Assembly (NCBI RefSeq): GCF_002777855.1
Contig: NZ_MEIK01000040.1
Coordinates: 62,001-126,000 of the forward strand
Length of the DNA: 64,000 nucleotides
Direction: 5' to 3'
Origin: Snodgrassella alvi
GTDB taxonomy: Bacteria; Pseudomonadota; Gammaproteobacteria; Burkholderiales; Neisseriaceae
This document shows positions 28,535 to 34,407 of this stretch, in pieces. A program made the position numbers and the translations under genes. A model generated the notes under the pieces. The model was not told the origin of the DNA and made no database searches. It worked only from the letters and a program-made list of their open reading frames with translations. Position 1 is the first letter of the stretch; each line of letters starts with the position of its first letter.

Positions 28535-29732
<1,198 letters not shown>

Positions 29733-29744
29733 TCTTTAAATCAT

Positions 29745-29777
29745 AAAGGTTAGTAAGCTTTTGTTACTAACCTTTTT
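29745..29777 (+). terminator. bamE-dapB terminator
   Basis: AAAGGTTAGTAA, a 7-base loop and TTACTAACCTTT plus T run, 12 bases after dapB. It lies before a convergent gene and may serve both directions. Confidence 0.88.
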
Positions 29778-29820
29778 ATCTTGAATTTAAATGTAAATCA
29801 GTTGTATATTTATACACTAC

Positions 29821-30939
29821 TTACTTAATTAGTTTTAGATGATACATAGAATGTGGCTTATTGGAGACCAAGCCAAATGTAAGATCTGCAATATCCTTAA
29901 AATCTATATTCAACTCATTTGCTATATCATCGATAGAAATCTTATCTTCTTCCAAATAATTAAATAATTGTTGCCATACATTGGATTCATCTCTACGCAT
30001 AGGCTGAGGCTCTGTTTTTCTAAATCCAGATATAGCTATTTTTGGACATAATACTCTTGTATATATCCAATCAGAAATTATTTCTAATTTATATAATCTA
30101 TAAGCAATCGCCGCAACTGAAACTCCAAAGACTTTTTTTAATTCAATTAGTTGCTCTATATTAGTAATTGATTGTTTTCGGATAGGTAATAATGCATCTT
30201 TGGGCATAAGAAATGCTGAAGCAAAATCATTTGCTTCTTTTTCAATAGGTCTTTTGTCACTCAACCCTTCCTCTGAAAGAAAATCAGAAACTGTTTCATC
30301 GGTTAAATTTGAATTATGTTTCATATTGTACACATCTCGAACTAAATGCCCTAGTTCATGTGCGCAATCAAACCTACTACGTTCAGCAGATTTCATCGTA
30401 TTTAAAAAAACAAAAGGAGTATGTTCGTTCCAAGTACAGAAAGCATCTACTTCTAATGCATCAATAGCTAATGAAAAAACTCTGACCCCTTTTGATTCAA
30501 GCAATTCGACCATATTAGCTATAGGATGAATACCTAATCCCCATTTTGATCTTAATATTTGAGCTGCATCTTCAGGATTAAATTGAGATAAATCTGGTAA
30601 ATCAGCTTTATTAAGCTCAAATCGCTTTTCAACCCAATCATTGAGCATGAAGGCAATAACGCCAAACGATTTTGCTTGATTTTTCAATCTATTAGATATT
30701 CTAGATTGAGCACGAAAGCTTACTTGGAAATCATTTAATAAAGGTAATTCACCCATGTCTTCAAAAAAAGCTGGAGAGAATTTGAGAATTCTACCTAACT
30801 TTTGTAGTACATCCGGGCTAATTGGCTTTTTTATATAATTATTAATTGTTCTTGGAGTAACCTCTAAAGCTTTTGCTAGCTCGGTACGAGTGAACCCGCG
30901 CCGGTCTAAAGCGAATTTAAGCCGACGGCGATTAATCAT
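29821..30939 (-). CDS. XRE helix-turn-helix protein with ImmA/IrrE metallopeptidase domain
   Basis: The 372-residue protein has an N-terminal HTH (residues ~10-55, FTRTELAKALEVTPRTINNYI) and then an ImmA/IrrE zinc-peptidase domain. The catalytic HELGH lies in RFDCAHELGHLVRDVYN (near residue 193). The third ligand is the Glu in PIEKEANDFASAFLMP, the family signature. A ~100-residue C-terminal extension (from about 275) is not recognised. Proteins of this layout include phage repressor-cleaving proteases, toxin-antitoxin regulators and stress regulators like RosR/IrrE. It sits 26 bases after an unknown gene on the same strand, making a two-gene unit in an AT-rich accessory region. The target protein of the protease could be the upstream gene product, but that is only inferred. 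Confidence 0.9.
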   Translation of the reverse strand: MINRRRLKFALDRRGFTRTELAKALEVTPRTINNYIKKPISPDVLQKLGRILKFSPAFFEDMGELPLLNDFQVSFRAQSRISNRLKNQAKSFGVIAFMLNDWVEKRFELNKADLPDLSQFNPEDAAQILRSKWGLGIHPIANMVELLESKGVRVFSLAIDALEVDAFCTWNEHTPFVFLNTMKSAERSRFDCAHELGHLVRDVYNMKHNSNLTDETVSDFLSEEGLSDKRPIEKEANDFASAFLMPKDALLPIRKQSITNIEQLIELKKVFGVSVAAIAYRLYKLEIISDWIYTRVLCPKIAISGFRKTEPQPMRRDESNVWQQLFNYLEEDKISIDDIANELNIDFKDIADLTFGLVSNKPHSMYHLKLIK

Positions 30940-30965
30940 AATTGCACCTATTTAAAATATTATAA

Positions 30966-31628
30966 TTATAAAGATTTTCGCTTTATTAGACCATTGTCTA
31001 TTTGAGCAGGTTTTGGCAACTGAGCAATGGTGTTACTACTAAACGTATTATAATTAAATGTAGGTAAAATAATTCGTTTTTCCCATTCTTCTACATGGCC
31101 TTTTGAAAAATTTCGGGGTATAGAAAGCTCTATATTTAATTTATCCGAATCGAAATGAAGCAATAGAATATAAATCTTGGTATGTTGATCAAAATAAAAC
31201 TGGGGGTCAGAATGTGCTTTACTTAATTCAGAACCTTTTTTTGCAGAATTTGTAGGATGGCCCTTTTTTTTACCTACATCTTCGTTTCCTAAAGTTACAT
31301 ATATTGCATTAGTTTTATTCGGAGTGATGGTAAATGATATATCACCACGACCTTCATACGATGTCCAGCCATATGGAACTAATTTATTTCTTAAAAAAGT
31401 AACGACAGAAGAAGAAATAATATTTTTAAAAGCAGATTTTGGTGCAGTAGGAGCTCTAAGATTTTGCGTATCTATTAATGCTTCTTGTAAAACATTTTTA
31501 AATAAATCAGGTGTTAACACTGTATTGATAGCTTTTAATTCTTCGCGAACCAGTTGTTCATCATTGATAAAAGTACAATTGGATAACGGATTAAAATTTT
31601 CAAGTTTAAAGAGATTATCAGTAGCCAT
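30966..31628 (-). CDS. Unknown protein paired with the HTH-metallopeptidase
   Basis: A soluble basic protein of about 220 residues with no recognised family, signal peptide or membrane segment. The N-terminal half is helical (DEQLVREELKAINTVLT, FKNVLQEALIDTQNL). A likely beta-rich middle follows (YEGRGDISFTIT, TNAIYVTLGNED). A Lys/Gly segment GKKKGHPTNSAKKG precedes the strand-rich IYILLLHFDSDKLNIELSIP. The scattered Asp and Glu residues in these strands would allow a nuclease-like fold, but no defined catalytic motif is visible. The start is uncertain: ATG at 31628 or, 4 codons upstream, 31640. It is first in the operon, with a perfect palindrome just upstream that may be the operator. Codon and base composition are AT-rich. 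Confidence 0.7.
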   Translation of the reverse strand: MATDNLFKLENFNPLSNCTFINDEQLVREELKAINTVLTPDLFKNVLQEALIDTQNLRAPTAPKSAFKNIISSSVVTFLRNKLVPYGWTSYEGRGDISFTITPNKTNAIYVTLGNEDVGKKKGHPTNSAKKGSELSKAHSDPQFYFDQHTKIYILLLHFDSDKLNIELSIPRNFSKGHVEEWEKRIILPTFNYNTFSSNTIAQLPKPAQIDNGLIKRKSL

Positions 31629-31647
31629 ACTATTTCTCATTTATTGA

Positions 31648-31660
31648 CATCAATTTGATG
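31648..31660. promoter_or_regulatory. Perfect 13-base palindrome at the start of the two-gene module
   Basis: CATCAA-T-TTGATG lies 8 bases upstream of the outermost start codon at 31640, where a repressor would block both promoter and ribosome access. The partner gene encodes an HTH protein, so autoregulation at this site is a reasonable inference. Confidence 0.4.
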
Positions 31661-31746
31661 CATGATAATAGGAAAAATTAACTAAGTCAATATTAATTAA
31701 ACAAAAAATATAAAAAATTGGTGTTCTTTTAAGCTATTTACCAAAC

Positions 31747-33651: not shown

Positions 33652-34407
33652 TTAAATTTTGCGGCCAAACCATTCTACTTTACCAATAATTTCAAAATCC
33701 TGTTCACTATCTGTTAAATCAATATTGAAAGGCTCATAAGCACTGTTTGCTGAGGTAACCAATAATTGGTTGTTTGGTTTGAGCTGGGTACGTTTCACCA
33801 AAATATTTTTGCCTATGCGCAAGACATACAAACCATCGCCACCGGCTTTTTTACTGTGATTAATTAATACATGATCGCCATCATTAAGCACACCAGCCAT
33901 GCTGTCATCTTTAACAATCATCGTGCTAAGCTTTTGAGGATCGATATTCAGGGTGTTTTCCAACCAGCTACGGTTAAAAGCAATAGTACATGCTATTCTG
34001 CTCTCTTTGCTTTCAGCATCATCTGCAGTTTGAATGGAGCAGACAGGTATAAAAGCAAAATCACGAGCATGTACTTCATTAACCGGTAAAACATACTCAC
34101 ATCCAGCTTCGCTGATGGTGGCATTCATAGCCAGCGGATTGGACAGTTTGGCGCAAAAATCAGCTTGTTCACTATAACCATCCAGTTCGATTTTGCTGCC
34201 CTTGCCGGTTGCCAGCCACTCCAGCTTTACTTGTGCAACGCGTGCTATTTTTATCAGATTGGTTGTACTAGGCTCAGCACCTTCTTTCACCCATTTAGAG
34301 GCAGTGGGATAGGCTACCTCTACCCGTCTGGATAACTCTGAAACGCTCCCAAGAATATCCACTACTTCTTGCATTCTTGAGGCAAAGCCGACGTTAAAAT
34401 TTTCCAT
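33652..34407 (-). CDS. Phage-type repressor with HTH and S24 LexA-like peptidase domain
   Basis: The 251-residue protein has an N-terminal HTH (residues ~15-55, SVSELSRRVEVAYPTASKWV) that recognises an operator. The C-terminal S24 self-cleavage domain has the catalytic Ser in IVKDDSMAGVLNDGDHVLI (near residue 170) and the general-base Lys in NILVKRTQLKP. This is a lambda-cI / LexA-like layout and is likely self-cleaved when RecA is activated by DNA damage. No phage structural or integration genes are beside it. The region it faces (34.4-35.6 kb) is gene-free, so it looks like the surviving repressor of a lost prophage or a host-domesticated regulator. Confidence 0.9.
   Translation of the reverse strand: MENFNVGFASRMQEVVDILGSVSELSRRVEVAYPTASKWVKEGAEPSTTNLIKIARVAQVKLEWLATGKGSKIELDGYSEQADFCAKLSNPLAMNATISEAGCEYVLPVNEVHARDFAFIPVCSIQTADDAESKESRIACTIAFNRSWLENTLNIDPQKLSTMIVKDDSMAGVLNDGDHVLINHSKKAGGDGLYVLRIGKNILVKRTQLKPNNQLLVTSANSAYEPFNIDLTDSEQDFEIIGKVEWFGRKI

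Follow-up and report, generated by a model that had tools for sequence, protein, structure and literature searches.

A probable RosmerTA toxin–antitoxin operon in Snodgrassella alvi, with a recurrent operator, a candidate clamp-binding motif in its toxin class and solitary relatives of its antitoxin in phages

The window, by which we mean the whole 64,000-nucleotide stretch of Snodgrassella alvi DNA under analysis, carries two adjacent genes on the minus strand, separated by 26 bases from stop to start. The first, rmrT (30966..31628), encodes a putative toxin, and the second, rmrA (29821..30939), encodes a 372-residue protein that would serve as antitoxin, repressor and metallopeptidase. For rmrT, the ATG at 31628, which gives a product of 220 residues, has a better-placed GAG Shine-Dalgarno-like stretch than the ATG at 31640, which would give 224. 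Both genes are AT-rich, with GC fractions of 0.31 for rmrT and 0.33 for rmrA compared to 0.51 for dapB and 0.44 for the window. An earlier note on this DNA had described two genes in the same direction and 26 bases apart, the first at 30966-31628, with a composition unlike that of the dapB side; the open reading frame coordinates, the plausible ribosome-binding stretch and the GC values bear out each of these points. The pair is flanked by dapB on one side and a DUF326 gene on the other, with an inverted-repeat terminator (29745..29775) between dapB and rmrA whose allele is similar to that of a pair-bearing sibling genome. The pair stands alone at this site, and no defence island was seen around it in the window. 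The window also encodes a cI/LexA-like repressor with an S24 peptidase at 33652-34407, which has no link to the pair as far as examined.

Both products match existing models in PADLOC-DB. RmrT residues 27-199 match the RmrT model PDLC03935 (E=3.4e-30), as do all 92 members of its class, and RmrA residues 1-360 match the RmrA model PDLC03949 (E=1.6e-118). The earlier note recognised nothing in the first protein, which stands for the general resources, as the rmrT product has no significant match in Pfam, NCBIfam or PHROGs and none in the PDB by sequence, but fails against the PADLOC model. Three features of a RosmerTA system that can be read from sequence are found here, namely an antitoxin with a helix-turn-helix (HTH) and an ImmA/IrrE (M78) domain, an adjacent partner matching an RmrT model, and pairing across genomes. 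We therefore consider it probable, at about 0.85, that the pair is a RosmerTA operon with rmrT first and rmrA second, acting in the manner proposed below. Membership, gene order, near-obligate pairing, the intact zinc site, the conserved operator and strain-variable presence can each be read from sequence alone. The literature describes RosmerTA as an anti-phage toxin–antitoxin family in which various RmrT toxins accompany an ImmA-domain antitoxin (PMC10440598), and one passage of that paper cites Millman 2022 for it. RosmerTA homologues in S. thermophilus were tested and showed narrow activity (PMC12322248), and RipAB (Spr1630/Spr1629) of S. pneumoniae has been assigned to the Rosmer family (PMC12795458). 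The proposal that the module was undescribed is thus overturned, since both proteins match RosmerTA models and the family is in the literature (PMC10440598, PMC12795458), while the accompanying suggestion that a regulator-protease is paired with an effector, in the manner of toxin–antitoxin or phage-defence systems, was right, as judged by the same matches. This kind of system is already described; the present analysis contributes the operator, the clamp motif and the solitary antitoxins of phages.

The window's pair shares with described RosmerTA systems an HTH and ImmA/IrrE-peptidase antitoxin adjoining an otherwise unnamed toxin, and its toxin-first arrangement is the one more often reported for the ImmA node (PMC10440598). 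It differs in that this RmrT class lacks a membrane segment, and no published mechanism for the class was found in the literature searched. The NCBIfam model for the RipAB antitoxin, NF052239, recognises RmrA with E=6e-35 and 120.9 bits, below its cut-off of 335.

RmrA begins with a cI/XRE-type HTH (residues 1-66, 30742..30939), supported by Pfam HTH_3 (E=2e-8) and by structural alignments to the DNA-binding domains of SinR, ImmR, CapH and P22 c2 (Z about 9-10). The IrrE/ImmA-type peptidase domain follows (residues 118-309, 30013..30588), matching Peptidase_M78 (E=4e-26), CapP (Z 12.3) and PprI/IrrE (Z about 10). Its HELGH zinc site (residues 194-198, 30346..30360) is intact, and a set of 58 diverse RmrAs shows no variation at H194, E195, H198 or E233, the last of which lies further downstream and is probably the third zinc ligand. 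The HTH, the HELGH and the downstream glutamate were thus correctly recognised in the earlier note. The roughly 100 C-terminal residues that it left unassigned can now be divided up: the peptidase domain runs to about residue 309, and it is followed by a small helical domain (residues 320-353, 29881..29982) of three helices predicted with high confidence, which has weak HTH-like Pfam matches only, and then by a low-confidence tail. The AlphaFold2 model as a whole has a pLDDT of 91.2. The same two domains occur in the CapH/CapP and DdrO/PprI (IrrE) pairs, CapP scoring highest among the structural matches to the RmrA peptidase, and PprI and CapP are reported to cleave their repressors in the presence of ssDNA (PMC10904395). 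In contrast to those pairs, RmrA fuses repressor and protease and has a toxin partner. ImmR/ImmA of ICEBs1 follows the same logic of HTH repressor and M78 protease, but there the two are separate proteins that govern excision of the element rather than a toxin (PMC10440598).

Such resemblances raise the possibility that the two genes form an ImmA/ImmR-like switch for an unrelated cellular process and no toxin–antitoxin system at all. RmrA taken alone does look like a repressor/protease switch, and it matches phrog_2439, which is named 'transcriptional regulator'. Against this stands its company. Among 160 loci encoding RmrA relatives, 80 from genomes and 80 from viral contigs, an open reading frame matching the RmrT profile lies directly upstream on the same strand in 151, most frequently with a 4-bp overlap; 22 of these 151 depend on a correction for RmrA starts that the mechanical ORF table had placed too far upstream. 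Three of the nine unpaired loci end at a contig edge (L037, L089 and L090), and the other six have no intact RmrT (L035, L038, L088, L095, L107 and L108). Approached from the toxin side, in plasmids, sibling genomes and samples of the phylum and class, all 12 intact RmrTs had an RmrA downstream. The conservation survey proposed with the earlier note, in which rare adjacency would have spoken against the module, thus came out in its favour. Near-obligate pairing across phyla, sporadic presence and location on plasmids and phages all argue against a regulator of an unrelated process, as does the fact that tested RosmerTA homologues are toxin–antitoxins, some of them anti-phage (PMC10440598, PMC12322248, PMC12795458), and we regard that reading as highly improbable. 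RmrA was the productive query for this survey; single-sequence pattern scans for RmrT in the viral and genome collections and tblastn of RmrT against the phage collection returned no relatives, because RmrT diverges fast while RmrA is conserved. On a Polaromonas plasmid, a second, separate ImmA/IrrE peptidase gene (L002:5958-6722) lies next to the RosmerTA pair.

Upstream of rmrT lies the palindrome CATCAATTTGATG (31648..31660), an exact match over 13 bp with 6-bp arms around one central base, just as the earlier note described at the 5′ end of the pair. On its own this palindrome is unremarkable, as an equally good one arises in 16% of shuffles of the 75-bp upstream sequence. Chance as the sole explanation was nevertheless dropped, and the palindrome is taken as significant, since relatives carry this motif in the corresponding position. 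Of the 91 regions upstream of RmrT, 37 contain the motif C[C/A]TCR-N2–3-TGA[G/T]G, nearly all of them at 32-62 bp from the RmrT start, compared to 0.15 expected in shuffles and a frequency of 0.9% in random pieces from the same loci. This motif was defined once the first examples had been seen, but the excess far exceeds that freedom. It is absent from the 300 bp upstream of solitary RmrAs. Directly upstream of the operator is a sigma-70-like promoter, TTGACT-17-TATCAT (31662..31690, minus strand), whose 10/12 consensus match is weak on its own, promoter-like matches being fewer in the upstream region than in shuffles.

The operator also covaries with RmrA. Among the loci analysed, 11 have A and 24 have C at base 2 of the half-site; RmrA residue 80 is arginine in 11/11 of the A class and lysine in 21/24 of the C class. 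Mapped on the RmrA tree, the A class requires three changes, each of them accompanied by R80, and well-supported branches force at least two. Residue 80 was picked after a scan of about 100 alignment columns. In the window its codon occupies 30700-30702; across relatives, arginine or lysine at this residue tracks A or C at base 2. The motif and its covariation with residue 80 support RmrA as a putative repressor of its own operon, and we infer that residue 80 would help to read base 2 of the half-site.

The AlphaFold2 model of RmrT (pLDDT 89.6, pTM 0.82) is a compact soluble alpha/beta fold, which bears on how the toxin may act. A RosmerTA toxin with tested anti-phage function, RmrT-D5 of Gordonia phage Kita, depolarises membranes (PMC10440598), and the window's RmrT could be imagined to do likewise. 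Its best 19-residue hydropathy is, however, 0.83, with no hydrophobic segment, only 3 of 92 members exceed 1.6, and the model is that of a soluble protein, so that a membrane toxin is extremely improbable here. The model instead resembles PD-(D/E)XK enzymes, with NaeI first (Z 8.7, rmsd 3.3, 135 residues) and EcoRV (Z 6.3) followed by SfiI, HincII and Hjc. The match is modest, with a best Foldseek E of 0.002 and nothing at E<=0.001 against viral models. RmrT could accordingly be an endonuclease of this fold with host or phage DNA as its substrate, brought there perhaps by the clamp and kept in check by RmrA. The dominance of NaeI, EcoRV, SfiI, HincII, DrdV and Hjc among the structural matches favours this idea, as do R84, E171, S173 and R189 (224-residue numbering), which are nearly invariant together with K/R135. 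These residues, part of a conserved set that also includes W92, G136 following K/R135 and P175, are nevertheless not the canonical catalytic set: across 92 sequences, no acidic pair plus lysine of the D...(D/E)xK kind is conserved on the candidate strands, whose equivalence was assigned from topology only. In addition, the Z scores are only slightly above those of unrelated models, Rep15 equalling the EcoRV score. We therefore judge a nuclease unlikely, though worth keeping in mind, and describe the class as having a predicted PD-(D/E)XK-like fold that lacks the canonical catalytic motif.

A different lead comes from the loop that follows the helix beginning at residue 136. It contains Qxx[LMI]F in 51 of 92 RmrT members, in variants such as QLELF, QLSLF, QLDMF, QTDMF and QYDLF, whereas 500 rounds of shuffled loops give a mean of 1.5 and a maximum of 7, and a single instance occurs elsewhere in the proteins. 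We take QxxLF to be the bacterial beta-clamp-binding consensus, and the literature search found no paper reporting it in RmrT. In the window's RmrT the corresponding loop, SDPQFYFD (31188..31211), is shortened and degenerate, reading PQFYF; the sibling reads EFYF, and Psychrobacter has no motif. The Rosmer toxin RipA has DnaN as an interaction partner, and mutations in the hydrophobic pocket used by clamp partners suppress it (PMC12795458). RipA is likened to this RmrT class by its published target, which fits the motif. Given the motif in 51 of 92 loops and the target of RipA, we propose that this RmrT class would act at the sliding clamp. For the window's own toxin, clamp contact may be weak, different or absent, and the subclade of window, sibling and Psychrobacter may have lost clamp docking. 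Alternatively, the motif could serve another contact, for example with RmrA.

Only occasional strains of the genus carry the pair, as an insertion between dapB and the DUF326 gene. RmrT is present in 2 of 101 relatives including this genome, in 6 of 398 phylum genomes and in 3 of 369 class genomes, and the presence of RosmerTA pairs is sporadic, with locations on plasmids and phages. The only sibling with the pair at the same place, G002, is 71% identical in RmrA, 44% in RmrT and 96% in DapB. By comparison, the same-species strain G489 (DapB 99% identical) has an empty site, with about 190 bp from dapB to the DUF326 gene rather than about 2.06 kb, and the site is also empty in 6 further congeners. 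Between the empty and the occupied strain, the entire intergenic region and the final dapB codons differ, and no target-site duplication was evident at the insertion. Because the last dapB codons and the terminator (29700-29780) differ from the empty same-species strain and resemble G002, the comparison suggests that the pair arrived by homologous recombination in its flanks, replacing the resident segment, rather than by transposition.

Apart from the RmrA of G002, the proteins closest to the window's RmrA are solitary antitoxins of prophages, 53-54% identical, found in the congener G006 (L214:5488-6567) and on viral contigs (L088:4001-5080, L089 and L090). They adjoin phage tail-lysozyme, head-decoration and integrase genes, and the G006 genome contains no RmrT match at all. 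Other loci retain traces of the toxin. In the aquatic phages L107 (3914-5186) and L108 and in L035 (3617-4852), the rmrA region is 99% and 89% identical in DNA, respectively, to the paired L101 system; the match begins in the last ~70 bp of rmrT, leaving its last ~20 codons in L107 and L035, and the sequence further upstream is unrelated, a NinB-type phage gene lying there in L107. In a Mycetohabitans prophage (L038/L095, upstream of 3992), rmrT is broken and rmrA intact. The solitary state takes four changes on the RmrA tree. These patterns point to repeated loss of the toxin with the antitoxin kept intact. Retention of the antidote while the toxin is lost suggests that phage RmrAs without a toxin may act in counter-defence, the alternative being a plain regulatory role or decay in progress, G005 carrying a decayed RmrA. 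The combined idea, that this RmrT class poisons the sliding clamp by docking through QxxLF and that temperate phages, including those of this genus, keep or capture the lone antitoxin as an antidote, we put forward tentatively, as somewhat less than an even bet.

Together, these features are consistent with the following working model of the RosmerTA operon. RmrA would bind the palindrome that immediately follows the promoter -10, repress the operon and also restrain RmrT. Infection or a DNA-damage signal, perhaps ssDNA by analogy with PprI/IrrE and CapP, would activate the peptidase, which might then cut RmrA's own HTH part or act on RmrT and so release the toxin; self-cleavage or toxin-directed cleavage is a guess by analogy, made because RmrA fuses repressor and protease. 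RmrT would probably interfere with DNA replication, as suggested by the PD-(D/E)XK-like fold of its class and by the class's QxxLF motif, which would dock on DnaN, a step that is weaker for the window's RmrT, whose motif is degenerate. The infected cell would stop growing, and the phage would not spread.

That the antitoxin controls its own operon is supported by the operator and by what looks like a specificity switch of one residue. The clamp motif is kept while the rest of RmrT diverges to about 20% identity, and with the target of RipA in hand the mechanism of this toxin class becomes tractable. If the proposed antidote role is true, a phage-borne RmrA without its toxin would be a ready-made anti-defence gene.
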